This document shows positions 13,952 through 49,232 of a DNA stretch of 64,000 nucleotides, piece by piece. Within the stretch, counting starts at the first letter, position 1. Each line of letters begins with the position of its first letter. This DNA comes from Rhodopseudomonas pseudopalustris. Its GTDB lineage: Bacteria > Pseudomonadota > Alphaproteobacteria > Rhizobiales > Xanthobacteraceae. The translations under genes were made by a program, and so were the position numbers. The DNA lies in the NCBI RefSeq assembly GCF_900110435.1, contig NZ_FODT01000002.1, positions 372,001 through 436,000 of the forward strand, written 5' to 3'. The notes under the pieces are model-generated. The model searched no databases, was not told where the DNA came from, and was given only the letters and a program-made list of their open reading frames with translations.

Positions 13952-13963
13952 CTACCTAAGTAG
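13952..13963 (-). promoter_or_regulatory. Candidate FixJ-binding site upstream of fixK
   Basis: A near-palindrome, CTACCTAAGTAG, lies about 95 bases upstream of the fixK start. It contains 7 of 8 bases of GTAMGTAG, the class I FixJ site described for Sinorhizobium. Position and context fit, but the match is imperfect. Confidence 0.4.
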
Positions 13964-14050
13964 TTTTACGGAGGCGGCGTGGCCGCCGGCTGATAAAATA
14001 AAGCCGAAATTCTTCAATGGCTTGGAAGTCGGGGAGGGCGTTGCGGCGAT

Positions 14051-14446: not shown

Positions 14447-14528
14447 TTGATTCCACGCACCCGGCCCAGCTGCAATTTTCTCATGGTCGCGAGAATAGGC
14501 GCCGGCGTACGAAGCAGGTTGATCTGCC

Positions 14529-16668: not shown

Positions 16669-16750
16669 GCGCTACCTTCGTCATTCATTGTCTTAGTCTT
16701 ATCATAGCGGTGTTCCGATCCGCAACGGACGCGGTGCACAACAAAACGCG

Positions 16751-16777
16751 CTGCGGCAAACCATCCGTTTGCCGCAG
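16751..16777 (-). terminator. Hairpin terminator after the CBS/BON gene
   Basis: Perfect 11-bp stem (arms 16751-16761 and 16767-16777) with a five-base loop. On the minus strand it is followed within a few bases by a T-rich tract. It sits 46 bases after the stop of the CBS/BON gene and upstream of fixL. Confidence 0.65.
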
Positions 16778-16822
16778 TCGTCGAGCCTGTCAAGCCCCTG
16801 CGCGCCGGCCGGCGCGCCGCGC

Positions 16823-17575
16823 TCAGCGCTGCTTCTTGGCGGAGCGATCGTCCTCCGGCGAATTCAAGTAGAAGCCGGACATGGTGTCGACCCAGCAAAG
16901 GTGATCGTGCACCTCCCTGACCCCGCATACATTCTCCGCGGCGACGATCGCCGCCTGGCGCGAGCGCTCCTCGGTGATCACGCCGCTAAGGTGCACGACG
17001 CCTTCGCGCACCAGCACGCTGAGCCCGAACGGTCGCCAGTCGTTGCGTTCGATTTCGGCGACGATCTTCTCGCGGATCTTGTCGTCGGCCGCGCTCGGGT
17101 CCGGAACTTCGCGCGCCAGGTTGGCGACCGCGCGCAGCAAGTTCTTGCGGGTGACGATGCCGACCAGCAGGTCGCCGCGCATCACCGGCAGGCGCTTGAC
17201 GTGATGCTTCTCCATCGTCTTGACGATGGCCTCGATCGGCGTGTCTTCCGTGATCGTATGCGGATGATGGGTCATCACCTCGCCGACCTTGCGGCCGTGC
17301 TCGTGGACGAAGTCGGCAGCACAGGTTCCTGGGCCGAGCAGCAGCCGCAGCCAGCGGCTGCGTTTGCGCTGGGTGCCGAGCTCAGCGCGGCGGATGAAGT
17401 CGCCTTCCGAGATGATGCCGACCAGTTTGCCGTCGGCGTCGACCACCGGCAGGCCGCTGACGTGGTTTTCGAGCATTACATTGGCGGCGTCGATAATCGA
17501 GGCTTCGGGCCCGATCGTCATCACCTGTTCCGTCATGATCTGCTGCGCACGCATGATCTGGCTCTCCTCCGGCAC
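16823..17575 (-). CDS. CBS-pair and BON domain protein
   Basis: Cytoplasmic protein of 250 residues with two CBS motifs (about 10-65 and 97-155), which usually bind adenine nucleotides, and a C-terminal BON domain (about 165-235, REGVVHLSGVITEERSRQAA). No catalytic domain is attached. It lies 69 bases downstream of a universal stress protein gene on the same strand, so the two probably form an operon read from the FixK-like box at 18547. Function is likely energy-state sensing or stress-related, but no specific role can be read from sequence. Confidence 0.85.
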   Translation of the reverse strand: MPEESQIMRAQQIMTEQVMTIGPEASIIDAANVMLENHVSGLPVVDADGKLVGIISEGDFIRRAELGTQRKRSRWLRLLLGPGTCAADFVHEHGRKVGEVMTHHPHTITEDTPIEAIVKTMEKHHVKRLPVMRGDLLVGIVTRKNLLRAVANLAREVPDPSAADDKIREKIVAEIERNDWRPFGLSVLVREGVVHLSGVITEERSRQAAIVAAENVCGVREVHDHLCWVDTMSGFYLNSPEDDRSAKKQR

Positions 17576-17644
17576 GGCTGTGCCGTCAATCGTCTAGCGC
17601 CCGGCGACTCCGGCATCGATGCGTCGGCGGCCGGTCGTGTCGCC

Positions 17645-18478
17645 TCAGTGCGAGATCAGCGCCGGCAGCGTCAGCGACTTGAAGATGCCGCGGGTCACGC
17701 CGCCGAGGATGAATTCGCGCAGCCGCGAATGGCCGTAGCCGCCCATCACCAGCATGTCGGCGCCGAGATCGGCGGCCAGCGACAGGATGGTGTTGTGGAT
17801 ATTGCCCGGGGGTGAGGTGTAGCGGTGCGCGGTGGCAGCGAGGTCGTGGCGCAGCAGATGCGCCAGCAGGGCGTCGGTCGACGACTGGCCGACATCCTCC
17901 TCATCCTCGTTGACGGCCACGACATCGATGGTCTTGGCGCGGCGTAGAAACGGCATCGCGTCATGCACGGCGCGCGCGGCCTGGCGTCCGCCGTCCCAGC
18001 AGATCAGCATGCGATCTAGCTGCATCGGCCCTGTATGGATGTAAGGCACCATCAGCATGGGTTTGCCGGAATTGAACAGGATGCTCTCCGGCAGCGGATC
18101 CTGGTGGCCCGGCTTGGCGCGATCGGGCTGTGGCACGACGCTGAGGTCGTACAGCCGCGAGATCTCCGACAGCGACTCATTGGCAAGCACCGGAGTGTCG
18201 CAGATGCTGCGCGCGCCATGGGTGATACCCGCGGCGCGGGCCGCGATTTCGAATTGGTCCAGGCGCGCCGCCGCTTCGTCATTGTCGGTGTTGTACTGAT
18301 TGGCTGCTGCGTAGTACGCCGCCGACGCGCCGACGACAATCGCCGGATTGATCGGCTGATAGGTGCAGACGATGCCGTCGAGATGCGCGCCGAACGCTTT
18401 GGCGATCGAGACGGCGCAGCCGACGATGCCATCAGCCGGTCGGTCCGCCGGAATATGCACGACAATATCATTCAGCAT
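17645..18478 (-). CDS. Universal stress protein (UspA family, tandem)
   Basis: A 277-residue protein, twice the length of a single UspA domain, so a tandem form. The C-terminal half keeps the nucleotide-binding signature GGYGHSRLREFILGGVTR (G-x2-G-x9-G pattern); the N-terminal half is diverged. It is divergent from a second tandem Usp gene at 18663, with a near-consensus FixK/FNR box between them. The family helps survival under growth arrest or low oxygen; the exact role here is unknown. Confidence 0.88.
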   Translation of the reverse strand: MLNDIVVHIPADRPADGIVGCAVSIAKAFGAHLDGIVCTYQPINPAIVVGASAAYYAAANQYNTDNDEAAARLDQFEIAARAAGITHGARSICDTPVLANESLSEISRLYDLSVVPQPDRAKPGHQDPLPESILFNSGKPMLMVPYIHTGPMQLDRMLICWDGGRQAARAVHDAMPFLRRAKTIDVVAVNEDEEDVGQSSTDALLAHLLRHDLAATAHRYTSPPGNIHNTILSLAADLGADMLVMGGYGHSRLREFILGGVTRGIFKSLTLPALISH

Positions 18479-18546
18479 GGCAGTGTTCCCCGCATAATGC
18501 CTGTTCCGAGTTTCGGCGAAATATACCGGCGTTGACGCGCCGTACT

Positions 18547-18560
18547 TTGATCTAGCTCAT
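18547..18560. promoter_or_regulatory. FixK/FNR-like box between divergent usp genes
   Basis: TTGATCTAGCTCAT has a perfect left half-site and one mismatch in the right half-site of TTGAT-N4-RTCAA-type boxes, plus a further change next to it. The box centre is about 76 bases from the minus-strand usp start and about 110 from the plus-strand one, so it could serve either side from position -40. Confidence 0.55.
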
Positions 18561-18662
18561 CGTGCGGGCTTGGCCCCGTTGCAGAAACATGGCTCAATTG
18601 CAGCAATGAGGATGCCCCGAACAATACGGTTAGTTCGGGGTGGATGCGCTGGGGGGATACCG

Positions 18663-19487
18663 ATGACCTATTCGACGATGATGGTGACCTTGTCTTGCGA
18701 TCATACGAATGCGTGTCAGCTCGGGATCGCCGCTGAACTCGCAGAACGGTTCGAAGCCCGGGTGATCGGCATCGCGGCCTCTGACATCAGTCCGCCACTC
18801 TACTTTACCTCCGGGGATCAGGCCGAGCGGCTGCTCGAGCACGGACTCGCTGCGATCCGGCAGCGCCTTGGCGAAGTGGAAGCCGAATTCCGGCAGGCGA
18901 TGGGCGGCCATGCGCGGGAGCTGCAATGGCGCTCGGCGATCGACCAGCCGGCTAAGTACATCGTGCAGCAGGCGCGCGCTGCGGACATCGTGATCAGCCG
19001 CGCCGCCGGGCCGCTGACCGACCCGTTTGCCTTGGCCGATCCGGCGGATCTGGTGATGCAGATCGGACGGCCGTTGCTGGTTGTCCCCGACGATAATTGT
19101 CGCGTCGATCTGTCGAGCGTGCTGGTGGCGTGGAAGGACAATCCGGAGGCACGCCGCGCGATCGTCAATGCGCTCCCGCTTCTGCGTCAAGCAAGCCACG
19201 TCACAGTGGTGGAGATCGTCGAACATGACGGCAGCCGCGCCGACGCGCTTGCCGGCGTTCACGATGTAGTCGACTGGCTGTCGCGCCATCATATTCACGC
19301 CACAGGCGAGGTGCCGGCGCCGGCCGGCGATGTCGCCAGGCAACTCGATACGGTCGCAACCCAGGTCCGCGCCGGAATTGTCGTCGCCGGTGCCTATGGG
19401 CACTCGCGATTCCGCGAATGGATCCTTGGCGGCGTCACCCAGCACCTGATCGAGCAGACCGCCCGCTGCGCCTTGCTGGCGCGCTGA
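18663..19487 (+). CDS. Universal stress protein (UspA family, tandem)
   Basis: Second tandem UspA-type protein, 274 residues from ATG 18663. The longer in-frame start at 18570 was rejected because a GGGGGAT ribosome-binding stretch directly precedes 18663 and the homologous fold begins there. The C-terminal nucleotide-binding signature GAYGHSRFREWILGGVTQHL is intact. It is divergent from the usp/CBS-BON pair and shares the FixK-like box at 18547. Confidence 0.86.
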   Translation: MTYSTMMVTLSCDHTNACQLGIAAELAERFEARVIGIAASDISPPLYFTSGDQAERLLEHGLAAIRQRLGEVEAEFRQAMGGHARELQWRSAIDQPAKYIVQQARAADIVISRAAGPLTDPFALADPADLVMQIGRPLLVVPDDNCRVDLSSVLVAWKDNPEARRAIVNALPLLRQASHVTVVEIVEHDGSRADALAGVHDVVDWLSRHHIHATGEVPAPAGDVARQLDTVATQVRAGIVVAGAYGHSRFREWILGGVTQHLIEQTARCALLAR

Positions 19488-19559
19488 TGCATGATCGTCC
19501 TGGAAATGGATCCCGGTCTTCGGGGAAAATCGCGCGACAAACATCAGCCGGGCTGTTGA

Positions 19560-19893
19560 TGACGTCCACTCGCTTCAGCACCAGGCGCTTGGCAATTTCA
19601 GCGCAGGCCAGATAACACACGACGATCGCGCCGAGCGCCAAGGCACCTCGACCCCGATCGACCATCCGAACACCGTCCGCAGCGGGCCGATCACCAGCGC
19701 GATGGCGACAGCCACCGATCGGCGCAGCGCCCACCGCGAGGAGCGCCTGTCGGATCGGCTGATGGAATGCGTTGTGGCCATAACGCAGCAACCGCTGCGC
19801 GGCCTCGCCGGAGGTCAGCCCCGTGCGCTGGCTGTTGGACTCAGCGAGCAGGGCATCGATCGATGACAGCCAGAACTGCGCTTGGTCTTTCAC
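19560..19893 (-). pseudogene. Remnant of a cation-transporting P-type ATPase
   Basis: Minus-strand fragments match the two ends of a Mg2+/Ca2+-type P-ATPase with everything between them lost. From a GTG at 19893, about 50 residues resemble the N-terminus (FWLSSIDALLAES, GLTSGEAAQRLLRYGHNAF). Directly afterwards come pieces typical of the last membrane helices (VAVAIALVIGPLRTVFGWS in another frame, then GAIVVCYLACAEIAKRLVLKR). The phosphorylation motif DKTGT, the ATP-binding domain and most helices are missing, and the last part needs frame changes. It cannot make a working pump. Confidence 0.75.
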
Positions 19894-19905
19894 GTGACCC
19901 CTGCA

Positions 19906-19919
19906 TTGATTGGCGTCAA
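19906..19919. promoter_or_regulatory. FixK/FNR box upstream of phaC and the ATPase remnant
   Basis: TTGATTGGCGTCAA is an exact match to the TTGAY-N4-RTCAA pattern bound by FixK and FNR proteins. It lies 13 bases before the start of the minus-strand ATPase remnant and about 226 bases before phaC on the plus strand. For phaC, a start of transcription near 19954 and a leader of about 185 bases would follow. Confidence 0.75.
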
Positions 19920-20138
19920 CGACGCCAAATCGCCGAATGGGATGCTCTCTCGCCGATCCGACGTGACGCTTCCTTAACCATCGGGCAAGCTGCGTTGCGT
20001 CGCTTGGATGCAGGACTGCGAGATGACGATTTCGCCATCCTATATGTGTATCGCAATGCCGTGCCGTGAATCCGCTCGACGATTTCGCAAGAGTCCCGAC
20101 CGTTTTCACGCCGAACTGGCCCGCACCGACATGAGGCG
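19920..20138 (+). other. phaC leader region
   Basis: About 220 bases without a convincing gene between the FixK box and phaC. A 44-codon open frame (ATG 20008 to stop 20142) overlaps the phaC start by an ATGA-type junction, but its composition (Arg- and Cys-rich) does not resemble a conserved protein. It may be only a leader. Confidence 0.3.
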
Positions 20139-21902
20139 ATGATGCTGCAAACGCCGTCAAACCCAATTGCCGTAGCGCCGCAAGCGCCGGTCAGGCATGT
20201 CGGGTCGACCGACAGCGACCGCTCGCTGCACGCCGCGCTGGCGCCGCTGACCGGCGGGCTGTCGCCGACCGCACTGTCGCTCGCTTATGCCGACTGGCTC
20301 TCGCATCTGTTTTGGGCGCCGGCGCGCCGGCTCGACCTCGCGCAGGATGCGCTGCGCGGCGCCGCGCAATTGGCGCAAGCCGCTGTCCATCCCGCGCCTC
20401 CGTGGTCGCTGATCACGCCGCAGCCGCAGGATCGACGCTTTGCCGGGCCGGAATGGCGGCAGCCGCCATTCAACCTCATGGCGCAGAGTTTTCTGCTCGC
20501 CGAGGAATGGTGGCGCGACGCCACCAACGGGATCCGCGGCGTGTCCCAGCAGAACGCGAAGATCGTCGAATTCGCCATGCGGCAGATGCTCGACGTGTTT
20601 GCGCCGTCGAACTTCGCGCTCACGAATCCCGAGGTGATCCGCCGCACTCTCACGTCCGAAGGCGGCAACGTCACCGCAGGCCTGCGGAATTGGTGGGAGG
20701 ATCTGCTGCAGACGATGTCGCACGACACCGACCTGAAGCACGATTTCGAGGTCGGGCGCGACGTCGCGGTGACGCCGGGCAAGGTGGTCTACAGCAACGA
20801 TCTGATCGAGCTGATCCAATATGCGCCCGCAACGGGGGAGGTTCGGCCGGAGCCGATCCTGATCGTGCCGGCCTGGATCATGAAGTACTACATTCTCGAT
20901 TTGTCGCCGCACAACTCATTGGTGAAGTACCTCACCGAACAGGGCTTCACCGTCTTCATGGTCTCGTGGCGCAATCCGACGGCGAAACACCGGGATCTCA
21001 CGCTGGAGGACTATCGCCGGCTCGGCGTGATGGCTGCGATCGAGACCATCCGTGCGATCGTCCCGCACCAGCCGATCCACGCGGTCGGCTATTGCCTCGG
21101 CGGCACATTGCTGTCGATCGCGGCGGCGGCGATGTCGCGCGATGGCGACGATCGGCTGCGATCGATCACGCTGTTCGCGGCCCAGACCGACTTCACCGAA
21201 GCCGGCGAGTTAACTCTGTTCATCAATGAAAGCCAGGTGGCTTTTCTCGAGGACATGATGTGGAAGCGCGGGGTGCTCGACACCACGCAGATGGCCGGCG
21301 CTTTCCAGATCTTACGCTCCAACGATCTGGTCTGGTCGCGGATGGTGCGCGACTATCTGATGGGAGAGCGGTCCGAGCCGAACGATCTGATGGCGTGGAA
21401 TGCCGACGCCACCCGGATGCCGTATCGGATGCATTCCGAATATCTGCGCAAGCTGTTCCTCGACAACGACCTTGCCGAGGGGCGCTACACCGTCGACGAC
21501 AGGGCGATCGCGCTGTCGGACATTCACACTCCGATGTTCGTGGTCGGCACGCTGCGCGACCACGTGGCGCCGTGGCGCTCCACCTTCAAGATCCATCTGC
21601 TGGCCGACGCCGAGATCACCTTCTGCCTGACCGGCGGCGGCCACAATGCCGGCATCGTCTCGCCGCCGTCGCCGAAAGCGCACGGCTATCAGGTGATGAT
21701 GAAGGAGGCTGATGGTCCCTATATCGGCCCGGACGATTGGATCAAGGAGGCGCCGCACGCCGAAGGATCGTGGTGGACCGAATGGGTGCACTGGCTCGAG
21801 GCACGATCTGGCCAGCCGGTGCCGCCGCCGCGGATCGGGCTTTCGGATACGAACGCCGCCGAGCTGCCGGATGCCCCCGGCCATTACGTGCTGCAGGCCT
21901 GA
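20139..21902 (+). CDS. phaC: Poly(3-hydroxyalkanoate) synthase, class I
   Basis: Polymerises (R)-3-hydroxyacyl-CoA into storage polyester on granules. It has 587 residues, normal for class I. The lipase-like box GYCLGG holds the nucleophile C319; the catalytic Asp is in RDHVAPW and the His in GGGHNAGIVSPP. GAGG at 20133 serves as ribosome-binding site; ATG 20142 is an equally good start. The gene overlaps the convergent phosphotransferase gene by 19 bases. An exact FixK/FNR box upstream suggests low-oxygen control, and a 3-hydroxybutyrate dehydrogenase for the breakdown product lies at 60534. Confidence 0.95.
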   Translation: MMLQTPSNPIAVAPQAPVRHVGSTDSDRSLHAALAPLTGGLSPTALSLAYADWLSHLFWAPARRLDLAQDALRGAAQLAQAAVHPAPPWSLITPQPQDRRFAGPEWRQPPFNLMAQSFLLAEEWWRDATNGIRGVSQQNAKIVEFAMRQMLDVFAPSNFALTNPEVIRRTLTSEGGNVTAGLRNWWEDLLQTMSHDTDLKHDFEVGRDVAVTPGKVVYSNDLIELIQYAPATGEVRPEPILIVPAWIMKYYILDLSPHNSLVKYLTEQGFTVFMVSWRNPTAKHRDLTLEDYRRLGVMAAIETIRAIVPHQPIHAVGYCLGGTLLSIAAAAMSRDGDDRLRSITLFAAQTDFTEAGELTLFINESQVAFLEDMMWKRGVLDTTQMAGAFQILRSNDLVWSRMVRDYLMGERSEPNDLMAWNADATRMPYRMHSEYLRKLFLDNDLAEGRYTVDDRAIALSDIHTPMFVVGTLRDHVAPWRSTFKIHLLADAEITFCLTGGGHNAGIVSPPSPKAHGYQVMMKEADGPYIGPDDWIKEAPHAEGSWWTEWVHWLEARSGQPVPPPRIGLSDTNAAELPDAPGHYVLQA

Positions 21903-23449
21903 ACGTCGAGCTTCAGCGCCGTCACGGCGCGCGCCAGCGTCTGGCCAGGCCCGCCGGAGGCGTCAATCGCGGCCCAGCCGATCTCGCCTTGCTCATAATC
22001 CTGCTGCTGTCGGACAATTTCCGGCGTCGCGTCCGACGCATCGCCGACGCGGTGGCCGACGCGATCCAGCCGGGTCTTCAGATCGGCGACCAGAAACAGA
22101 CCCGCGAACGCGGACCTTGTCTGCGCCGCGATGGCTTCGATCGCCTGCCGCTCCTCGCCTTTCGAGAACACCGCATCGACGATCACCGAATGACCTTGCT
22201 TCAGAATATGCCCGGCCCGTTCGCCGAGGTTGCGATAGACCTGCGCCGTCACCTCAGCTGAATAGGCGGTATCGGGCAGCCGTTCGGTCTCGTCGACGCC
22301 GAACAGCCGCTTGCGCGCGACGTCGGAGCGCAGCACCACCGCGCCCGGAAGCGGCGAGATGTGGCCGGCGAGCGCGCGGGCCAGCACCGACTTTCCGGTG
22401 CCGGACAGCCCGCCCACGGCGATCAGCCGGGGCGGCGGCGGCGCGATCAGGCGCGCGGCGAGGACGAAATAGGCCTCCGCGGTCTGTCGGTGGCTACGCT
22501 TCGTCACAGCATCGCCGGCGGGCCGCGCCAGCATCACCTTGGCGCGGATCGCGGCGCGCAATGACAGCAGCAGAGGCAACAGGCCGAGCGCGTCGCCGTT
22601 CGGCGCGCGCGTCACCGCAAGATAACGGTTCAGCAGGTCGGCGGCGGCCTCGCAGCGGCCGTAATGGATGAAATCCATCAACGCGAAGGCGAGGTCGTAC
22701 AGCACGTCGACCGACGCGAATGCCGGATCGAATTCAATCGCGTCGAACAGCACCGGTGCGTCGTCGATCAGCACGATATTGGCGAGATGCAGATCGCCGT
22801 GGCACCAGCGCACGAAGCTCTGTCCACCGCGCCATTCGAGCAACCCACGCGTGCGTTCGAATTCGGCGCGGGTGGCGCGATCGAGCGCCGCGACCGCGTC
22901 GGCCGGAAAGCCGCCGGCTTCGAACGCTGCGGCATTGTCGGCGATGATCGGGACGATGGATGCGATCCAGGGGGCAGCGGCGGCTTCCGGCGCCGCGCGA
23001 TGCGACGCGGCAATTACATCGGCAATGGCGACGACAAGGGCGGGATCGAGCGGACCGGCGGCTGCGAGATGGTCGATCGTGCGCCTTTCGTCGAAGCGCT
23101 GCATCTCGACCGCCCACTCGATCGGCTCGCCGTCGCCGCCGATCCGCAGCGTGCCGTCCGCAGCGCGGGTGATCGGCAACACCTGGCGATAGATCTGCGG
23201 CGCGAATCGACGGTTGACCTGGAGTTCCTGCTCGCAGGCCGCCTTGCGCTGCACCAGCGTCGAATAGTCGAGAAACGGGAAACGCACCGCGCGTTTGATC
23301 TTCAGCACGCGATCACCGGTGAGAAACACCGCCGCGCCGTGCGTGTCGATTTGCGTGACGGGCGCGCCGCCATGCGTCGCCGGATCGGCGACAAACCGGA
23401 ACACTTCTTCCTGCCGCGCCCGGTCTGATGCTGTGATCGGCTCTGCCAT
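21884..23449 (-). CDS. Aminoglycoside-phosphotransferase-like kinase fused to P-loop ATPase
   Basis: Two-domain protein of 521 residues from ATG 23449; the frame extends to 23533 but the extension would lie at or before the transcription start predicted from the FNR box at 23558. The N-terminal half is an APH/choline-kinase fold with the catalytic loop CHGDLHLANI (about 230) and DAIEFDPAF metal-binding Asp. The C-terminal half is an AAA-type kinase domain with Walker A GGLSGTGKS (about 347). Such fusions are widespread in proteobacteria, sometimes in low-oxygen regulons; the substrate is unknown and antibiotic resistance should not be assumed. Confidence 0.85.
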   Translation of the reverse strand: MAEPITASDRARQEEVFRFVADPATHGGAPVTQIDTHGAAVFLTGDRVLKIKRAVRFPFLDYSTLVQRKAACEQELQVNRRFAPQIYRQVLPITRAADGTLRIGGDGEPIEWAVEMQRFDERRTIDHLAAAGPLDPALVVAIADVIAASHRAAPEAAAAPWIASIVPIIADNAAAFEAGGFPADAVAALDRATRAEFERTRGLLEWRGGQSFVRWCHGDLHLANIVLIDDAPVLFDAIEFDPAFASVDVLYDLAFALMDFIHYGRCEAAADLLNRYLAVTRAPNGDALGLLPLLLSLRAAIRAKVMLARPAGDAVTKRSHRQTAEAYFVLAARLIAPPPPRLIAVGGLSGTGKSVLARALAGHISPLPGAVVLRSDVARKRLFGVDETERLPDTAYSAEVTAQVYRNLGERAGHILKQGHSVIVDAVFSKGEERQAIEAIAAQTRSAFAGLFLVADLKTRLDRVGHRVGDASDATPEIVRQQQDYEQGEIGWAAIDASGGPGQTLARAVTALKLDVQACST

Positions 23450-23557
23450 GATGCTACTTCGGAACTTGCGACCTGTCCGGAAATGGATCAGCGCCGCAGG
23501 CCGACGTGCCGAGCATAATTGCACGGATAACAAGACGCCCGGGAAAACGGCGCCGGA

Positions 23558-23571
23558 TTGACCTTGATCAA
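23558..23571. promoter_or_regulatory. FixK/FNR box between phosphotransferase and CBS genes
   Basis: TTGACCTTGATCAA is an exact TTGAY-N4-RTCAA site. A centre at -41 would put transcription starts near 23523 on the minus strand and 23606 on the plus strand. Both fit the chosen start codons (23449 and 23676) and argue against the longer upstream starts. Confidence 0.8.
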
Positions 23572-23675
23572 TTCAATTCCGCAAAGCTGCGGTCAATTTG
23601 CCCGAAACGGCGATTATCAGGTGTCTCAATACACTTTGTACGCCATCGACTGCAGTTCGACTGATTGGAATTAGC

Positions 23676-24104
23676 TTGTACAAGTTTCTCGAGGCAATCG
23701 TTGCCGACCACATGACGCGTCCGGTGAAATCCGTGTCGCGGGAAATGACGATGCGCGAGCTGGAGGACCAGTTCGAGCGCGACGATTACAACGCCTATCC
23801 GGTGTTGGAAGATTCACGCGCGATCGGGCTGGTGACGAAGTACGATTTTCTCAATTGCTTCGCCTTTCACCCGACCCAGATGCTGCCGCATTATGACGAC
23901 CTGATGAACCGCACCGTCGGCGACATCATGACGCCCGACTTCATCTATGTTCATGCCGACACCAAGCTGACGCGGGTGCTGCAATTGATGGTCGAGCACC
24001 AGACCCGTAGCATCCCGGTGCTCGATGCCGACCGCAAGCTGGAAGGCATCATCTCGCGCGAGGACGTGATCAAGGCTCTCGCGAGTTTCACCAAGGTAAA
24101 ATGA
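23676..24104 (+). CDS. CBS-pair domain protein
   Basis: Small cytoplasmic protein made only of two CBS motifs (142 residues), MTRPVKSVSREMTMREL and MTPDFIYVHADTKLTRVLQLMVE. The start is taken as TTG 23676 with GGAA eight bases before it. The longer frame from ATG 23598 would begin before the transcription start predicted from the FNR box. ATG 23712 is the other candidate. It likely senses adenine nucleotides for an unknown partner; pairing with the phosphotransferase gene through a shared box suggests a low-oxygen role. Confidence 0.82.
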   Translation: MYKFLEAIVADHMTRPVKSVSREMTMRELEDQFERDDYNAYPVLEDSRAIGLVTKYDFLNCFAFHPTQMLPHYDDLMNRTVGDIMTPDFIYVHADTKLTRVLQLMVEHQTRSIPVLDADRKLEGIISREDVIKALASFTKVK

Positions 24105-24235
24105 CAGCCGCGCGGCGCTGGGCCGCGGTAGCGAAAATTGGAAACGCCGGGGCATTTGTAATACACAGGTTGCGGGCAGCCCCGGAATCGCGCAACGGCT
24201 GATATCGGCCTCCGGCTGCCCGGTGCCGAGGTGGG

Positions 24236-26959
24236 ATGTCGACTTATCGATTGAGCAATCTCCTGTCGCCTGCCGCGGTGGCGGTGATCGGCGCAAGCCC
24301 GCGGCCAGCATCGCTCGGCCGCGCCGTGCTCGACAATCTGCGTAACGCCGGCTTCAAGGGCGAGATCGGCGTCGTTAACCCGCGCTATCCGGAGATTGGC
24401 GGCTTCAAGACGGTTCGCGCGCTGGCCGAGCTTTCGTTCGTACCGGATCTGATCGTCATCACCGCGCCTTCGCGGACGGTAGCTAAGATCGTCGCCGAAG
24501 CCGGCGAACGCGGCGTCGCCGGGGCGATCATCATCAGCGCCGAGATGGGTCGTGGCAAAGGCTCTTACGCCGAGGCCGCCAATCGCGCCGCGCGCAAATC
24601 GGGAATACGACTGATCGGCCCGAATTGCCTTGGCATCATGGTGCCGAGTTCCAACCTCAACGCCAGCTTCGCCGCGCATATGCCGCGGCGGGGCAATCTG
24701 GCGCTGATTTCGCAGTCCGGCGCGATCGCGGCCGGTATGGTCGACTGGGCCGCCGTCAAGAACATCGGTTTCTCGGGGATCGTGTCGATCGGCGATCAGC
24801 TCGACGTCGACATCGCCGATATGCTCGACTTCTACGCTGCCGACATCGAGACCCGCGCGATCCTTCTGTACATCGAGGCGGTGACCGACGCCCGCAAGTT
24901 CATGTCGGCGGCGCGCGCCGCCGCGCGGGTGAAGCCGGTGGTGGTGGTCAAATCGGGACGGATGGCGCACGGCGCCATGGCGGCCGAGACGCACACCGGC
25001 GCGCTCGCCGGCGCCGACGCCGTATACGGCGCTGCATTCCGCCGCGCCGGCATGTTGCGGGTGTTCGATCTGCGCGAATTGTTCGATTGCGCCGAAACCC
25101 TTGGCCGGGTCAGCGCCCCGCGCGGTAAGCGCGTGGCGATCCTGACCAATGGCGGCGGTATCGGCGTTCTCGCCGTCGATCGGCTGGCAGAACTCGGCGG
25201 CATCCCGGCGACGCTCTCGAAAGACATCTGCGACAAGCTCGACGCCGTTCTGCCGCCGAGCTGGTCGGGCTCGAATCCGATCGACATCACCGGCGATGCC
25301 GATGCCGAACGCTATGCGGCATCCCTGGAGGTGTTGCTCGCCGATCCGGACAACGACGCCATCCTGGTGATGAATGTGCAGACCGCGATGACGTCGTCGG
25401 CCGAGATCGCCAAGGCGGTGATCCGGGTGGTCGGTGAGGAACGGGTTCGCCGCTCCTTCTTCAAACCGGTGTTCGCGGTCTGGGTGGGCGCTGACGACAC
25501 CGTGACCAAGGCTTTCGACGCAGCATCGATTCCGAACTATCTCACCGAAGACGACGCGGTCCGCAGCATCATCAATCTGGTGCGCTATCGCGAAGCCGCG
25601 CAGCTCTTGACCGAGGTGCCGCCGAGCCTGCCGAAGGAGTTCGATCCGGACACCGAGGCCGCGCGGTTGGTGATCGAGAAGGCGTTGCGGGAGGGGCGCT
25701 CCTGGCTCGATCCGATCGAAGTCGGTGCGCTGTTCGCCGCGTATCAGATCCCGATGGTCCCGACGCTGGCTGCGGCCGATGCCGACGAGGCGGTGGCGTG
25801 GGCCGAGCCGTTTCTGGCGCAGGGCGTGACGGTGGTGGTCAAGGTGATGTCGCGTGACATCACCCACAAATCCGACGTCGGCGGTGTGGTGCTCAACCTC
25901 ACCAGCGCCGATGCGGTGCGCACCGCCGTCGGCGAAATTCTCGCCCGCGCCGCAAAGCTGCGGCCGAAAGCGCGGCTCGAGGGCGTGATCGTGCAGCCGA
26001 TGATCATACGTCGCAAGTCGCGCGAGCTGACGGTCGGCATCGCCGACGATCCGACCTTCGGACCGGTGATCGCGTTCGGCCATGGCGGCACCGGCGTCGA
26101 AATGATCGACGACCGTGCCCTGGCGCTGCCGCCGCTCGATCTGCCGCTCGCCGATTCGCTGATCGCGCGCACCCGGGTATCGAAGCTGCTACAGGCCTAT
26201 CGTGACGTGCCGGCGGTGAAGGACGGCGCCGTTGCGCTGACGCTCGTCAAGCTGTCTCAGATAGCGGCGGACTTTCCGGAGATCCACGAACTCGACATCA
26301 ACCCGCTGCTCGCCGACGAGGGCGGCGTGGTGGCGATCGACGCCCGCGTCCTCGTGCGGAAAGCCGAGCGCAAATTTGCAGGGCTCGGCAACAGCACCTT
26401 CGCGGTGAAGCCGTATCCATCGGAATGGCAGCGGCATCTGGTCGTGAAAGACGGCTGGCGCGTGCTGGCGCGTCCGCTCCGGCCCGACGACGAGCCGGCG
26501 ATCCACGAATTCCTCAAGCACGTGACACCCGAGGATCTGCGGCTGCGATTCTTCGCGGCGATGAAGGAGTTCAGCCACGCCTTCATCGCGCGGCTGACCC
26601 AGATCGACTATGCCCGCGCGATGGCGTTCGTCGCGATCGACGAGGCGACCGGCGAAACTCTCGGCGTGGTGCGGATTCACTCGGACTCGATCTACGAAAG
26701 CGGCGAATACGCCATCCTGCTGCGCTCCGACCTCAAGGGCAAAGGCCTCGGTTGGGCCCTGATGAAGCTGATCATCGAATATGCGCGCGCCGAAGGGCTG
26801 AAATTCGTTTGCGGTCAGGTGCTCCGCGAGAACGCCGCGATGCTCGGAATGTGCCGTCAGCTCGGTTTCGAGGCGAAGACCGATTACTCCGAACCGGACA
26901 TCCTCAACGTGACGCTGCCGCTGACCGACGAGTCGGCTCGCGCCGCCGCCAAATCTTGA
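24236..26959 (+). CDS. Acyl-CoA synthetase (NDP-forming) domain fused to GNAT acetyltransferase (Pat-like)
   Basis: A 907-residue protein. In order: CoA-binding domain (about 8-130, VIGASPRPASLGRAVL), succinyl-CoA-ligase-like domains (about 150-460), ATP-grasp (about 490-710), then a GNAT domain (about 735-895, acetyl-CoA loop RSDLKGKGLGWAL). This layout matches Pat/PatZ lysine acetyltransferases that silence acyl-CoA synthetases. H253 in ETHTGALAG occupies the catalytic His position of ADP-forming acetyl-CoA synthetases, so ligase activity cannot be excluded. It starts 131 bases after the CBS gene on the same strand and may be read from the same FNR box. Confidence 0.88.
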   Translation: MSTYRLSNLLSPAAVAVIGASPRPASLGRAVLDNLRNAGFKGEIGVVNPRYPEIGGFKTVRALAELSFVPDLIVITAPSRTVAKIVAEAGERGVAGAIIISAEMGRGKGSYAEAANRAARKSGIRLIGPNCLGIMVPSSNLNASFAAHMPRRGNLALISQSGAIAAGMVDWAAVKNIGFSGIVSIGDQLDVDIADMLDFYAADIETRAILLYIEAVTDARKFMSAARAAARVKPVVVVKSGRMAHGAMAAETHTGALAGADAVYGAAFRRAGMLRVFDLRELFDCAETLGRVSAPRGKRVAILTNGGGIGVLAVDRLAELGGIPATLSKDICDKLDAVLPPSWSGSNPIDITGDADAERYAASLEVLLADPDNDAILVMNVQTAMTSSAEIAKAVIRVVGEERVRRSFFKPVFAVWVGADDTVTKAFDAASIPNYLTEDDAVRSIINLVRYREAAQLLTEVPPSLPKEFDPDTEAARLVIEKALREGRSWLDPIEVGALFAAYQIPMVPTLAAADADEAVAWAEPFLAQGVTVVVKVMSRDITHKSDVGGVVLNLTSADAVRTAVGEILARAAKLRPKARLEGVIVQPMIIRRKSRELTVGIADDPTFGPVIAFGHGGTGVEMIDDRALALPPLDLPLADSLIARTRVSKLLQAYRDVPAVKDGAVALTLVKLSQIAADFPEIHELDINPLLADEGGVVAIDARVLVRKAERKFAGLGNSTFAVKPYPSEWQRHLVVKDGWRVLARPLRPDDEPAIHEFLKHVTPEDLRLRFFAAMKEFSHAFIARLTQIDYARAMAFVAIDEATGETLGVVRIHSDSIYESGEYAILLRSDLKGKGLGWALMKLIIEYARAEGLKFVCGQVLRENAAMLGMCRQLGFEAKTDYSEPDILNVTLPLTDESARAAAKS

Positions 26960-27032
26960 ACATCAAGAGGCTTGAATATCTCGGAACGCGCCGCCGGCGC
27001 CGCGTGATGCTTGCTCGATCGACGGGAAAGAC

Positions 27033-27443
27033 CTATAGCCGGCTCACCGCCACGACGCGGAAAGTATGCATGTCGCCTTCCTCGCGAATCGAGACGTATT
27101 CGCCCTGCACGAAGCGTTCGTCGCCGAAGTGGTAGCCTGCCTCATCCGGGATGTTGGCGGCAGCGTCGTACTGAAACGCCCAAGAGCCGCCGGGACGATG
27201 AACCAAATGGCCGAGACTGTCCGGTTGCTGCGGACGCTGCCGCGCCACGCGGCAGGCCTCGCGATGCTTCTTCCAGGTTTCGGCGTCGATCCGGTCGTTC
27301 TCGTCGAGCGGCGCTACGATCACGTAAGCGATCCGCGATTCGCCTTCCGGATGTCCGGGCTCGCGCGCAAGCTCGAGCCGGATTTGGCGGAAGCGCGCGG
27401 GCAACGAAGAGTTGAGGATGGCGGACGGAGAGCCCTTGGTCAT
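27033..27443 (-). CDS. Hypothetical protein, FixK-box associated
   Basis: A 136-residue protein I cannot place in a family. It is charged and probably cytoplasmic, with a C-terminal part (YHFGDERFVQGEYVSIREEGDMHTFRVVAV) that looks like a small beta fold. The start MTKGSPSAIL at 27443 is supported by AGGA eight bases before it and by the exact FixK/FNR box at 27502, which predicts transcription from about 27467. The upstream extension of the frame overlaps that box and was rejected. It is divergent from the Mla-type operon. Confidence 0.65.
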   Translation of the reverse strand: MTKGSPSAILNSSLPARFRQIRLELAREPGHPEGESRIAYVIVAPLDENDRIDAETWKKHREACRVARQRPQQPDSLGHLVHRPGGSWAFQYDAAANIPDEAGYHFGDERFVQGEYVSIREEGDMHTFRVVAVSRL

Positions 27444-27501
27444 TGGATCGATCCTATCATCGCTGCAGGGACAAAGCTTACGCAGCGCCGGGGCGCGATA
27501 A

Positions 27502-27515
27502 TTGATTTGCATCAA
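27502..27515. promoter_or_regulatory. FixK/FNR box upstream of the Mla-type operon
   Basis: TTGATTTGCATCAA is an exact, almost fully symmetrical FNR/FixK site. Assuming a centre at -41, predicted starts are near 27467 (minus, 24 bases before the hypothetical gene) and 27550 (plus, about 70 bases before the permease GTG). Confidence 0.82.
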
Positions 27516-27621
27516 TCGCATCCCGCGACGCAAGCTGTCGGCTCGAGGGTGCCGCTCCGGCGGCTCGCGAATCGCAAACGGAGCATCGGATGGCGGCATT
27601 GAAGGCCGGGCAGGAGCGGCA

Positions 27622-28758
27622 GTGATTTCTGCGCCAGTTCTGACTGTAGTGACCGACGGCGACGTGCTGGAACTGCATCCCGGCGGCGCGTGGATCGCCA
27701 GCCAATCGGCCGCGCTGGAACGGCTGTTCGAGGGCGTCGCGCCGCAGGTCGCCGCTGCAAAATCACTCAAGATCGACATGACCGAGGTGATCGAGATCGA
27801 CACCATCGGCGCTTGGCTGCTGGAAAAGGCGTCACGCGAGGCCGCGCAGGCTGGTCGCACCGCGCATTTCGTCGGGGTCGGCGAACGCTACGCCGGGTTG
27901 ATCGAAGAGGTCCGGCAAGTCAACCGCCACAGACCGACGCCGAAACCCAAGGTCAATCCGATCATCGCGCGACTCGATCAGGTCGGTCGCTCAGCCTGGA
28001 GCGCCACGCAGGACATCGCGGTATTCCTCGACATGTTCGGTGCGCTCGGCGTCGCGTTGCTCGGCGTGCTGCGGCGGCCGCGTTCGCTGCGGCTGACCTC
28101 GTTGACCTACCAGATCTATCGCGTCGGCTGGCGGGCGATCCCGATCGTCGTGCTGATCACCTTCTTGATCGGCGCGATCATCGCGCAGCAGGGCATTTTC
28201 CACTTCCGCAAATTTGGTGCGGAATCCTACGTGGTCGACATGGTCGGCATCCTGGTGTTGCGCGAGATCGGCGTTCTGATCGTCGCCATCATGGTCGCCG
28301 GCCGCTCGGGCAGCGCCTACACGGCCGAACTCGGCTCGATGAAAATGCGCGAGGAGATCGACGCGCTATCGACCATGGGGCTCGACCCGGTCGAGGTGCT
28401 GATCCTGCCACGCATCATCGCGCTGGTGATCGCGCTGCCGATCCTGACCTTCATTGGATCGATGTCGGCGCTGTACGGCGGATTGCTGACCGCGTGGTTC
28501 TACGGCGGCATGCAGCCCGCGGTATACATCGCGCGGTTGCACGAGGCGGTGTCGCTCAACAGTTTCGAGGTCGGGATCTGGAAGGCGCCGTTCATGGCGC
28601 TGGTGATCGGCATCGTCGCCTGCAGCGAGGGCCTGCGGGTCAAGGGCAGCGCCGAGTCGCTCGGCCTGCAGACCACCACTTCGGTGGTGAAGTCGATCTT
28701 TCTGGTGATCGTGCTCGATGGCCTGTTCGCTGTATTCTTCGCCTCGATCGGGTTGTAG
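27622..28758 (+). CDS. MlaE-type phospholipid ABC permease with N-terminal STAS domain
   Basis: Inner-membrane permease of an MCE/Mla-type lipid transporter, 378 residues. Residues about 1-105 form a STAS (MlaB-like) domain fused to the MlaE permease (about 120-378; landmarks AGRSGSAYTAELGSMKMREEIDAL and VKGSAESLGL). GTG 27622 is chosen because AGGAG lies six bases before it; the upstream in-frame ATG at 27502 coincides with the FNR box. It is followed two bases later by the ATPase gene. Substrate is probably phospholipid, by family. Confidence 0.88.
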   Translation: MISAPVLTVVTDGDVLELHPGGAWIASQSAALERLFEGVAPQVAAAKSLKIDMTEVIEIDTIGAWLLEKASREAAQAGRTAHFVGVGERYAGLIEEVRQVNRHRPTPKPKVNPIIARLDQVGRSAWSATQDIAVFLDMFGALGVALLGVLRRPRSLRLTSLTYQIYRVGWRAIPIVVLITFLIGAIIAQQGIFHFRKFGAESYVVDMVGILVLREIGVLIVAIMVAGRSGSAYTAELGSMKMREEIDALSTMGLDPVEVLILPRIIALVIALPILTFIGSMSALYGGLLTAWFYGGMQPAVYIARLHEAVSLNSFEVGIWKAPFMALVIGIVACSEGLRVKGSAESLGLQTTTSVVKSIFLVIVLDGLFAVFFASIGL

Positions 28759-28760
28759 CG

Positions 28761-29537
28761 ATGGACGCATTCGCCGATCTTTATTCTATTCGCGTTTCCG
28801 AACTCGTGGTTGGTTTTGGCCACCAGATCGTGATCGATCATCTGTCGCTCGATGTCCGCCGCGGCGAAATTCTCGGCCTGGTCGGCGCCTCAGGGGGCGG
28901 CAAATCGGTGCTGATGCGCACCATCATCGGCCTGATCCCGAAGCAGGAAGGGCGCATCACGGTGATGGGGCGGGACAGCGATCTTGGGCTCGGCCGCGGC
29001 ACGGCGGTCGCCGCCACATGGGGCATCCTGTTCCAGCAGGGCGCGCTGTTCTCGTCGCTGACCGCGCGGCAGAACGTGCAGTTTCCGCTGCGCGAGATGC
29101 TCGACATCTCGGAGAAGCTGCAGGACGAAATCGCGACCGCCAAGCTCGAGATGGTCGGCATTGCGCCTGACGACTGGGACAAATACCCGGCGCAGCTCTC
29201 AGGCGGCATGACCAAGCGCGTCGCGCTCGCGCGTGCGCTGGCGCTGGATCCAAGCATTGTGTTTCTCGACGAGCCGACCTCCGGCCTCGATCCGATCGCC
29301 GCCGGCGATTTCGATCAGCTCATCAAGACGCTGCAGACCACGCTCGGGCTGACTGTGTTCATGGTGACCCACGATCTCGCCAGCCTCAACGTCGTCTGCG
29401 ACCGCGTCGCGGCCCTGGCCGACGGCAAGATCGTGGCGATCGGCCCGATGACCGAACTGCTGCAATCCGAACATCCCTGGGTGCGCGCCTATTTCCACGG
29501 CAAGCGCTCGGAGATGCTGCGCCCCAAACAGGACTAG
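28761..29537 (+). CDS. MlaF-type ABC transporter ATPase
   Basis: ATP-binding subunit, 258 residues from ATG 28761. Walker A GASGGGKS (about 38), signature QLSGGMTKRVALARAL with the M-T-K-R variant typical of the MlaF group, Walker B IVFLDEPTSGLDP, and the H-loop VTHD are all intact. It begins two bases after the permease stop and ends seven bases before the MCE gene, so the three form one operon. Confidence 0.93.
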   Translation: MDAFADLYSIRVSELVVGFGHQIVIDHLSLDVRRGEILGLVGASGGGKSVLMRTIIGLIPKQEGRITVMGRDSDLGLGRGTAVAATWGILFQQGALFSSLTARQNVQFPLREMLDISEKLQDEIATAKLEMVGIAPDDWDKYPAQLSGGMTKRVALARALALDPSIVFLDEPTSGLDPIAAGDFDQLIKTLQTTLGLTVFMVTHDLASLNVVCDRVAALADGKIVAIGPMTELLQSEHPWVRAYFHGKRSEMLRPKQD

Positions 29538-29544
29538 AACGCCC

Positions 29545-30717
29545 ATGGAAACCCGTGCTCCCTTCGTCATTGTCGGTGCGTTCGTGCTTGCGGCCATCCT
29601 CGCGGTGTTCGGCTTCGTGTTCTGGCTGCACAACACCAGCGGGATCGGCGCGCGCACCAGTTATCACATCCAGTTTCGCGATCCGGTGCCGGGCCTGCTG
29701 GTCGGCGCCGCCGTATTGTTCAACGGCATCCGCGTCGGCGAGGTTACCGCGCTCGGGCTTGCGACCGACGATCCGCGCCGCGTCAACGCGACGATCGCGG
29801 TGGCGACCGATACGCCGGTGCGGCCGGACACCAGGGTCGGGCTCGACTTCCAGGGGCTCACTGGCGTGCCGGTGGTTGCGCTGGAGGGCGGCAAGGATCT
29901 GACGGGATCTGCAATCGCCACCACCTTGATCGCGGAGCCGGGCGCGGGGATGAGCATGACCCAGGCGGCGCGCGAGGCGCTGCGCAAGGTCGATTCGGTG
30001 CTCGGTGAGAATTCGCAGCCATTGAAGGAGACAATCGGGAATCTGAAGACCTTCTCGGAATGGCTGTCGAACAAGACCGGCAAGCTCGATGGTATTCTCG
30101 GCGGCGTCGAGCGGATGACCGGGGCCAACGAGCCGGTGGTGAAAAAGGTCGTGTACGATCTCCAGCCCGCCAAGGGCTTTCCGCCGCCGACCAAGTCGAT
30201 CCGAGGCCAACTCACCATTCCGGAGCCGACCACGGTGGTGCTGTACGATTCTCAGAAAATGCTGTTGGCGCCCGGCCTCGAACTGCCGGCCTTCGCCGGT
30301 GCGCAATGGAGCGACAGCATTCCGAAAATGCTCCAGGAAAAGCTGATCCAGAGCTTCGAAAACTACGACATCGCTCATCCGCCGCTGCGGCCGAACGATG
30401 CAGTGCAGCCGGATTATCAGTTGCTCATCGACCTTAGAAGTTTTCAGATCGCCGGCCGCGAGGCTGAGCTGGTCGCTGAAGTCGCCTTCGGCGCCAAGAT
30501 CATCGACAAGGGCGGAAAGCTCGTCGCGGCGCGGCTGTTTCAGCAGTCGTCCAAATTAGGTAACCCAGAGCCCGCAGCGGCCGTTGCGGCCTTCGAAACG
30601 GCCTTCGACGCCACCGCCAAAGCGTTGATCCTATGGACCGTGGATAGTCTGGCCACCGGCGCAGGTGAGGCGAGACCGGTTACTCCAGGCTCTTCAGGTA
30701 CGACAAAAGGTCGTTGA
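29545..30717 (+). CDS. MCE (MlaD-type) lipid-binding protein fused to transport auxiliary domain
   Basis: Membrane-anchored periplasmic protein, 390 residues. One N-terminal helix (about 6-28) is followed by an MCE domain (about 38-115, VLFNGIRVGEV) and a helical region. The C-terminal half (about 215-370) resembles the ABC-type transport auxiliary lipoprotein family (PqiC-like), normally a separate protein with its own lipid anchor. It ends 38 bases inside the convergent cytochrome gene. Together with the STAS-permease fusion it makes a compact three-gene system. Confidence 0.85.
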   Translation: METRAPFVIVGAFVLAAILAVFGFVFWLHNTSGIGARTSYHIQFRDPVPGLLVGAAVLFNGIRVGEVTALGLATDDPRRVNATIAVATDTPVRPDTRVGLDFQGLTGVPVVALEGGKDLTGSAIATTLIAEPGAGMSMTQAAREALRKVDSVLGENSQPLKETIGNLKTFSEWLSNKTGKLDGILGGVERMTGANEPVVKKVVYDLQPAKGFPPPTKSIRGQLTIPEPTTVVLYDSQKMLLAPGLELPAFAGAQWSDSIPKMLQEKLIQSFENYDIAHPPLRPNDAVQPDYQLLIDLRSFQIAGREAELVAEVAFGAKIIDKGGKLVAARLFQQSSKLGNPEPAAAVAAFETAFDATAKALILWTVDSLATGAGEARPVTPGSSGTTKGR

Positions 30718-30994
30718 TCTGATCCGGCTCGAGCTCGAACGCCGGCATCTTCGAATGTCCGGTGTAAATGCCCTCGGCGAACGCCTCGGCCAGAGTCTCG
30801 ACCGGATAGTGGTTGTGCAACGTGCGGAACGGCGGCGCTTTCTTCAATCGACTTTTGCCGGTCCGGCCGATTGCGTGGCAGCGCGCGCAATGCGATTTGG
30901 CAAATACCAGTCCCCGCCGCTCGACGTCTGTCGACGCCGAAGCAGTGCTGACCATCAGAAGCATAATCGCGGAAAACCCGGAAACAATTCGCAT
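30680..30994 (-). CDS. Small periplasmic c-type cytochrome
   Basis: A 104-residue class I cytochrome c. ATG 30994 gives a clean signal peptide (MRIVSGFSAIMLLMVSTASAS); the longer frame from 31036 would start before the transcript predicted from the FixK box. The haem site is CARCH and the likely axial Met is in HSKMPAFEL. It probably shuttles electrons in the periplasm; the partner is unknown. An exact FixK box lies 66 bases upstream. Confidence 0.9.
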   Translation of the reverse strand: MRIVSGFSAIMLLMVSTASASTDVERRGLVFAKSHCARCHAIGRTGKSRLKKAPPFRTLHNHYPVETLAEAFAEGIYTGHSKMPAFELEPDQINDLLSYLKSLE

Positions 30995-31059
30995 TGGCGC
31001 TCTGTCTAGAAAAGGCGCAATTGCGCACCCGACCATCGATGGAGACAGGCTGAATGGCC

Positions 31060-31073
31060 TTGATCTGTGTCAA
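31060..31073. promoter_or_regulatory. FixK/FNR box between cytochrome c and the aadR-like gene
   Basis: TTGATCTGTGTCAA is an exact match, differing by one central base from the FixK2 consensus TTGATCTGGGTCAA. It predicts transcription from about 31025 (minus, cytochrome) and 31108 (plus, regulator). Confidence 0.83.
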
Positions 31074-31182
31074 GCCGCCTTGACGATTTGCCGACATATT
31101 AACTTTTTTAGCGCATGGTACGCGATCATTCGATGGCAGTGCGCGGCAAAGCAGTAGATCTAGCGACCGCATGGAGTAATGG

Positions 31183-31902
31183 ATGCCGCACCTCGCTTTT
31201 CCGAACTCGAACTGCGACGGTTTCCGTTGCGCCACGCATTGCGCGGTGCGCCCGCTGGCAATTTGTGGCGAGCTGGAACAGGCGGAGCACGAGGAGTTCG
31301 AACGCCTCGCCCAGCACGTTCGCTACGGGGCGAAGGAAGCCCTGTTCTCGGAGGATGAAGTCGCCGATGCGGTCTACAGCCTGGTCGAAGGCATCGCGCG
31401 GCTCTACAAGTTGTTGCCCGACGGCCGCCGTCAGATCATCGGATTTGCGTTGCCTGGCGATTTTCTCGGGATGGCGCCTTCGGCCCGCTACTCGTTCTCG
31501 GCGGATGCGATCGGCGGTGTCACCGTCTGCAAATTCTTCCGTGGGCCGTTCCTGCGCTTCATCGAAAACAAGCCGCATATGCTGATGCGGATGAACGAGT
31601 TCGCCACGCGCGAACTCAGCCTGGCGCAGGATCAGATGCTGCTGCTCGGACGCCGCTCCGCCGAAGAGAAGGTCGCGGCCTTTCTGGTCGGCTGGCGCGA
31701 TCGACTTGCCCGGCTCGAAGGCGTCACCAAGACCGTCAGTTTGCCGATGGGACGGCAGGATATCGCCGACTTCCTGGGGCTGACCATTGAAACCGTAAGC
31801 CGCACCTTCACCAAGCTGGAGCGGGAAAAGTTGATCGTGATCGTCCCGGACGGGGTACGCGTGCTGGATCCGAAGCGTTTCGACGCGCTCGCCGCGGCCT
31901 GA
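31183..31902 (+). CDS. aadR: FNR-type anaerobic regulator, probably AadR
   Basis: Crp/Fnr-family activator of 239 residues, the length of R. palustris AadR, which controls anaerobic aromatic degradation. Unlike FixK at 13170 it has cysteines that can hold an oxygen-labile [4Fe-4S] cluster: C11, C16, C20 and C28 at the N-terminus plus C116. The helix-turn-helix (GRQDIADFLGLTIETVSRTFTKLEREK) shares the E-x2-S-R recognition core with FixK, so both should read the same boxes. The exact box upstream suggests control by FixK or itself. The aadR name rests on length, cysteines and genomic setting, not on a search. Confidence 0.82.
   Translation: MPHLAFPNSNCDGFRCATHCAVRPLAICGELEQAEHEEFERLAQHVRYGAKEALFSEDEVADAVYSLVEGIARLYKLLPDGRRQIIGFALPGDFLGMAPSARYSFSADAIGGVTVCKFFRGPFLRFIENKPHMLMRMNEFATRELSLAQDQMLLLGRRSAEEKVAAFLVGWRDRLARLEGVTKTVSLPMGRQDIADFLGLTIETVSRTFTKLEREKLIVIVPDGVRVLDPKRFDALAAA

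Positions 31903-47015: not shown

Positions 47016-49232
<2,217 letters not shown>

Follow-up and report, generated by a model that had tools for sequence, protein, structure and literature searches.

Within a 64,000-nucleotide stretch of the Rhodopseudomonas pseudopalustris genome (contig NZ_FODT01000002.1; hereafter, the window), a block of 17 genes running from fixK to aadR spans positions 13170 to 31902, interspersed with palindromic boxes of the kind recognized by FixK and FNR. We read this block as a low-oxygen regulon island run by FixLJ-FixK, with AadR acting downstream, and place the probability of this reading at about 0.88; as judged from its DNA, the island is most likely a real FixK regulon and probably serves AadR as well. 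Its features, for which gene calls are our own (from a codon-usage caller trained on 15 window genes), are given below, with boxes listed without strand and hexamer offsets counted from the box.

13170 to 13859, minus strand: fixK, FixK2-type CRP/FNR regulator (Pfam cNMP_binding and HTH_Crp_2; alignment to B. japonicum FixK2 4i2o, E 1.3e-112)
14051 to 14443, minus strand: single-domain response regulator, RR1 (PF00072 only)
14519 to 14532: box TTGATCTGCCTCAA, one mismatch to the exact pattern, full published FixK2 consensus; TATTCT at offset 22 towards RR1
14529 to 15146, minus strand: fixJ (NF006900, 338 bits, cut-off 255)
15136 to 16668, minus strand: fixL (NF041777, 926 bits, cut-off 850)
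16823 to 17575, minus strand: CBS-BON protein (PF00571, PF04972), without its own box in this genome
17645 to 18478, minus strand: universal stress protein USP1 (PF00582)
18547 to 18560: box TTGATCTAGCTCAT, imperfect (two mismatches); USP1 side with TATATT at offset 22
18663 to 19487, plus strand: universal stress protein USP2 (PF00582 in the longer open reading frame; start from the gene caller)
19435 to 19896, minus strand: P-type cation ATPase remnant (PF00690, E 2.3e-6)
19906 to 19919: exact box TTGATTGGCGTCAA, preceding phaC and patchily conserved
20139 to 21902, plus strand: phaC, polyhydroxyalkanoate (PHA) synthase (PF07167; TIGR01838 at 552.7 bits, below the cut-off of 622.65)
21884 to 23449, minus strand: APH-AAA fusion kinase (PF01636, PF13671; start assumed at ATG 23449, longest open reading frame to 23533)
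23558 to 23571: exact box TTGACCTTGATCAA, between the APH-AAA and CBS genes
23676 to 24104, plus strand: two-CBS-domain protein (PF00571 twice; start from the gene caller)
24236 to 26959, plus strand: fusion of acyl-CoA synthetase (NDP-forming) and GNAT, Pat-like (PF13380, PF13607, PF13549, PF13302)
27033 to 27443, minus strand: conserved protein (0 Pfam families matched)
27502 to 27515: exact box TTGATTTGCATCAA, between the conserved-protein gene and mlaE
27649 to 30717, plus strand: three-gene Mla-type operon (PF02405, PF02470, PF03886, PF00005), comprising the MlaE permease (start uncertain), an ABC ATPase at 28761-29537, and MlaD-ABC_trans_aux at 29545-30717
30680 to 30994, minus strand: cytochrome c (PF00034 in the longer open reading frame; start assumed at ATG 30994)
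31060 to 31073: exact box TTGATCTGTGTCAA, between cytochrome c and aadR; CATATT at offset 22 towards aadR
31183 to 31902, plus strand: aadR-type FNR regulator (PF00027, PF13545; Cys pattern; ETVSR)

The genome thus encodes FixL and FixJ above curated cut-offs together with a FixK2-type protein, the components of a FixLJ-FixK cascade. The alignment to Bradyrhizobium FixK2 covers FixK residues 10-229, and FixK has a Cys at the position at which the 4i2o chain has a Ser; given that the crystallized FixK2 protein is the C183S form (PMC9104804), the redox-sensitive cysteine is therefore present in the window FixK. AadR displays the cysteines of an FNR-type protein, at residues 11, 16, 20, and 28 plus a central one in GGVTVCKFF, from which an Fe-S cluster is predicted. 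Both regulators share the recognition helix ETVSR.

Boxes of the island and of the genome

Exact matches to TTGAYNNNNRTCAA occur at 19906, 23558, 27502, and 31060, with no further exact match in the window, precisely as claimed in an earlier note made from the sequence of this stretch. That note had also listed a near match at 18547, which is indeed present, and had described all five sites as intergenic; this stands for the four exact boxes by the gene caller and for 18547 by its position between the starts of the divergent USP genes (18478 on the minus strand, 18663 on the plus strand). Likewise, four sites do separate divergent genes (18547, 23558, 27502, and 31060), with 19906 lying between the ATPase remnant and phaC. 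A mechanically placed mlaE start at 27502 falls in the box itself and was set aside for a later, likelier start. Overlooked among the five was a sixth, conserved box at 14519, which overlaps the last four bases of fixJ and precedes RR1, the gene after fixJ. Motifs of the 14519 type (TTGACCTGCCTCAA and TTGACCTGTCTCAA) are given for FixK2-dependent Bradyrhizobium genes, and the published FixK2 consensus is TTG(A/C)-N6-(T/G)CAA (PMC9104804). This looser pattern has six matches in the window, i.e., the four exact boxes, 14519, and one intragenic match at 48178; five of the six island boxes fit it, 18547 being the exception.

Could such a cluster be a chance pile-up? Near matches are indeed common: with one mismatch allowed, the window holds 10, where 3.38 are expected and 1 of 100 shuffles attains that number, meaning that a near match carries little weight without conservation, and the loose consensus is not significant on its own, as 10 of 100 shuffles reach six matches. 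The exact sites behave differently. The expectation in the earlier note of 0.25 exact sites per 64 kb was if anything high, since dinucleotide shuffles yield 0.10 on average; none of the 100 attains four. Moreover, for four exact sites packed into 11,168 bases, simulation at the genome density of 45 per 5.27 Mb gives a P of 0.0044-0.0046 (about 0.0045). Across those 5.27 Mb, the reversed pattern of the box occurs 5 times and three permuted palindromes 2, 0, and 13 times, and 42 of the 45 exact boxes are intergenic by the same gene caller. Taken with the conservation footprints described below (Fisher p 3.6e-14 to 5.4e-9), these shuffles, pattern controls, and density simulations lead us to reject a chance origin, the probability of which we consider negligible.

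A second dense cluster, on the contig of the window (C12) at 526985-543300, comprises six exact boxes in 13.3 kb, a density matched in none of 50,000 simulations; one of its boxes is intragenic and two lie 32 bases apart. The genes there include hemN, bchE, bchJ, and phosphoketolase, by virtue of which the cluster serves as a positive control. In the published sets consulted, hemN, the anaerobic cyclase, and phosphoketolase belong to FNR or FixK regulons.

Promoter geometry and conservation

As a sequence proxy for mapped transcription starts, hexamers were compared with the -10 consensus TATAAT in a weighted and rather crude score (maximum 9, threshold 5) at each offset from a box. Among the 45 directions genome-wide with a gene start 30-300 bases ahead, -10-like hexamers scoring at least 5 occur in 12 at offset 22 and in 13 at offset 23, against 0-7 at the other 43 offsets; with a hexamer at these two offsets, the box is centred at -40.5 and -41.5, where a class II promoter needs it. 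Only a weak peak is left (mean scores 2.14 and 2.34 vs. about 1.5-2.1 elsewhere) when all 90 directions are pooled, including those that face no gene. Of the 10 gene-facing directions of the window, 8 score at least 5 at one of the two offsets (background 0.135; binomial 3.8e-6, a somewhat flattering value for the reason given further below), the best -10 of the island being the TATATT on the USP1 side of 18547. Driving of the ATPase remnant by the 19906 box was considered and rejected, with a -10 score of 2 on that side and the box ending about 14 bases before the putative start; the remnant is itself missing from the USP2-phaC gap in 6 aligned relatives, whose phaC alignment was covered to a point short of its end.

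A protein search returned 10 loci in named genomes, of which the seven closest are Rhodopseudomonas. There, boxes stand at the same places between aadR and cytochrome c (6/6), at 27502 (6/6), and between APH-AAA and CBS (7/7), with the 14519 box in 6/6 with one mismatch and the phaC box exact in 3/7. Wider counts, restricted to loci with both neighbour genes found, give an exact box in 16 of 17 loci for the APH-AAA/CBS gap (the sole miss, L067, being probably a different gap), 15 of 15 for 27502, and 14 of 14 for 31060. The USP1/USP2 gap has an exact box in 0 of 14 loci; its best match is TTGATCTA(G/T)CTCAT in 13, and the fourteenth, L021, has the motif in the alignment.

Alignment of these gaps reveals invariant columns concentrated in the boxes: (i) 11/14 at 14519 vs. 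1/74 in the rest of the gap (11 sequences), (ii) 13/14 at 18547 vs. 7/170 (13 sequences), (iii) 11/14 at 23558 vs. 14/212 (14 sequences), (iv) 12/14 at 27502 vs. 14/133 (12 sequences), and (v) 14/14 at 31060, the most conserved box, vs. 33/194 (12 sequences). The Fisher p values quoted above take columns as independent, while the sequences are related. The latter are drawn from the genus of the window and genera g6 and g41, each footprint reaching one or two other genera; the distant loci L023-L025, in which boxes are not kept at these places, were excluded, the short L019 enters few counts, and L022 and L088 are probably one strain. Among the tblastn queries used to annotate the loci, the entry mlaF? 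was in a wrong frame, with stops as X; its labels serve for position and contribute to none of the counts. Four columns of the 14519 footprint may be held by coding, because the box overlaps the end of fixJ. As for 18547, invariance of 13/14 box columns against 7/170 in the gap makes this near match a real conserved element. Conservation also extends beyond certain boxes: past the aadR box, at 31074-31100, 12 sequences show the block CTTGACGATTTGNCGACATATT with hardly any variation, and next to the 23558 box, towards CBS at 23572-23600, most relatives retain GCTGCGGTCAATTTGC; each stretch is longer than a -10 alone needs.

Boxes have also been gained and lost while the gene cluster stayed together. 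In 7 of 7 loci outside core Rhodopseudomonas (L052-L056, L089, and L091, of which L089 is labelled as the window's genus yet is the most divergent), CBS-BON is equipped with an exact box to itself and a -10 score of at least 5, whereas such a box is present within 700 bases in 0 of 11 core Rhodopseudomonas loci, among which the window is counted. Between the USP1 and CBS-BON matches lie 60-96 bases in the 11 core loci vs. 101-239 in four measurable outer loci. The simplest reading is that CBS-BON would now be read from the USP1 promoter. For phaC, an exact box is found in 7 of 15 loci (the window, L016, L019, L021, L052, L085, and L087).

Orthologue regulation and competing readings

Much of this wiring has counterparts in close relatives, with window genes mapped to RPA and Rpal loci by inference from order, annotation, and numbering. 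R. palustris CGA009 has the same genes by order and annotation: aadR is RPA4234, cytochrome c RPA4235, the ABC genes RPA4236 and RPA4238, a hypothetical gene RPA4239, and the response regulator RPA4249. In strain TIE-1, aadR (Rpal_4713) and fixK (Rpal_4729) bound 17 genes inclusive, as in the window. The window comes from another strain or species, and its USP2-phaC gap holds an ATPase remnant; in the passages covered of the CGA009 and TIE-1 literature, no description of the 14519 and 18547 boxes was found. FixK targets were predicted by Dufour 2010, in which FixK dependence in R. palustris is cited for RPA4235, 4236, 4238, 4239, and 4249, as well as for "RSP4237", taken here as RPA4237, and FixK2 dependence in Bradyrhizobium for blr6070, blr6071, and blr6074 (PMC2908626). 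In TIE-1, aadR is 2.6-10.1-fold up anaerobically and at 0.2-0.7-fold in a fixK mutant (Bose and Newman, PMC3050613). In B. diazoefficiens, genes between bll6060 and blr6074, among them a CRP/FNR regulator, Mla, GNAT, USP, phaC2, and CBS genes as in the window, are microoxia-induced, with phaC2, the USP gene bll6069, and the CBS gene blr6074 being marked as direct FixK2 targets (PMC6515984). Candidate sites for phbC and aadR have also been listed in some Rhizobiales (PMC4999443).

The supposed low-oxygen FixK dependence of the window genes thus rests on reports for orthologues. The view in the earlier note of a compact low-oxygen regulon beside fixLJ-fixK is well backed by the footprints, promoter geometry, and published orthologue expression. 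Its remark that textbook FixK roles are missing for most of the targets misleads, as a dependence of orthologues on FixK is reported for R. palustris and on FixK2 for Bradyrhizobium. The boxes appear genuine and ancient, but this is a known regulon in another Rhodopseudomonas genome, most of its wiring having been reported before in close relatives; to it we add the sixth box, the geometry of promoters in both directions, the finding that the imperfect USP1 box is conserved, and cases of boxes gained or lost in a stable gene cluster.

Several points weigh against the regulon-island reading: (i) the window offsets were fixed after the genome-wide result, whose 45 sites include the window's four; (ii) towards USP2 and mlaE, the -10 score is 4 each, below the threshold; (iii) the phaC box is absent or imperfect in 8 of 15 loci (L017, L018, L020, L022, L053, L086, L088, and L089); (iv) Rpal_4717, by numbering the mlaE orthologue, is at 0.4-1.5-fold anaerobically and 0.36-1.8-fold in the fixK mutant (PMC3050613); and (v) the bll6060 regulator and the MCE, ABC, MlaE, and GNAT genes (bll6060, bll6063-6065, and bll6068) are not marked as direct FixK2 targets in the available part of PMC6515984. 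The target list of the earlier note is thus uneven, lacking a good -10 for USP2 and mlaE, a box of its own for CBS-BON, and a genus-wide box for phaC. It may be that only some of the boxes work (14519, 18547 towards USP1, 23558, 27502 towards the conserved protein, and 31060), with the phaC box a passing, lineage-specific one and mlaE and USP2 outside box control. The low -10 scores, the patchy phaC box, and the noninduction of Rpal_4717 speak for such a partial set; however, the score is crude, RPA4236 and RPA4238 are listed as FixK-dependent (PMC2908626), and Bradyrhizobium phaC2 is FixK2-dependent from its own box (PMC9104804). On balance, we give the partial set a substantial chance, somewhat short of even.

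With respect to the island as a FixLJ-FixK regulon, low oxygen would activate FixL-FixJ, leading to production of FixK, which would bind the 14-bp palindromes in the island gaps and recruit RNA polymerase as a class II activator does, from a box centred near -40.5/-41.5; at divergent gaps, one box could serve promoters on both sides. Direct FixK binding at each box in the window strain is what we infer from these DNA features. As one FixK target, aadR would supply an FNR-type protein that reads the same kind of box and extends the response to anoxia; we likewise infer a division of labour between FixK and AadR. RR1, another target, could damp FixL signalling and may in this way close a feedback loop from FixK to FixL. 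The output would be energy-saving physiology, i.e., universal stress and CBS proteins, PHA storage, the kinase, the protein-acetyltransferase-like fusion, lipid transport, and cytochrome c.

Alternatively, the main user of the boxes might be AadR or some other FNR/DNR-type regulator, with FixK acting mostly indirectly by raising AadR. Box sequence does not discriminate FixK from FNR-type proteins (PMC2908626), AadR has the Cys cluster and the same ETVSR helix, and the most conserved box belongs to aadR itself. Orthologues are nevertheless FixK2-dependent in Bradyrhizobium and reportedly FixK-dependent in R. palustris, with the proviso that dependence is no proof of direct action, and fixK lies within the same block in those loci that reach it. 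We therefore regard this alternative as fairly improbable compared with a FixLJ-FixK regulon that has AadR downstream.

In E. coli, two divergent promoters can be served by one CRP site. Each divergent gap of the island may possibly be a one-operator, two-promoter switch, in which one FixK or AadR dimer, seated on a palindrome, serves two class II promoters that point outwards from it, with tuned spacers and a tuned, imperfect USP1 box; we advance this tentatively. With one dimer per divergent gap, the two genes would be tied together and could not both fire at once from that dimer. Were this so, the site-specific, near-invariant spacers (14/14 columns at the aadR box) and the imperfect though invariant USP1 box would set the balance between FixK and AadR, or between the two directions. 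A literature search for one-box divergent FixK/FNR promoters found nothing relevant. In the Bradyrhizobium fixK2 mutant, phaC2 (-27.9) and the CBS gene blr6074 (-90.9) both fall, and they are given with the same 14-mer read from opposite sides (PMC9104804); a shared box with both neighbours FixK2-dependent is thereby documented. The same 14-mer lies between CBS-BON and phaC in L091, a genome of the family, with TATCCT at offset 22 towards phaC, and judged from this locus, the B. diazoefficiens type of gene order differs from that of the window. What emerges is a deeply conserved promoter set in which two divergent low-oxygen genes, lying beside their own regulators, may share a single box; it reveals no new system, and the island is useful for asking how FixK and an FNR-type protein share sites.

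Wider comparisons and the APH-AAA kinase

The mycobacterial DosR set (USP, CBS, and kinase genes) may resemble the island; within the sources covered, our literature search found no direct comparison of the two. The Burkholderia cenocepacia lxa locus is likewise described as a low-oxygen-activated block with importance for anoxic survival, but it belongs to another class of bacteria.

For the uncharacterised APH-AAA kinase, we surveyed 40 family loci (35 outside the genus), chosen by hand from 117 matching genomes, and 40 class loci (L092-L131), chosen by hand from 95 other matching genomes. An exact box stands just upstream of the kinase gene in 9 of the 35 family loci outside the genus and in 5 of the 40 class loci, vs. 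0.0 for 11 permuted palindromes; as a direct box target throughout the class, the kinase is thus a weak candidate. Its neighbourhoods hold 49 exact boxes in 648 kb in the family loci (1.0 for controls) and 23 in 528 kb in the class loci (0.7 for controls), the latter of which suggests a wider low-oxygen link of the kinase. A USP1-like gene is found near it in 9 of the 40 class loci.

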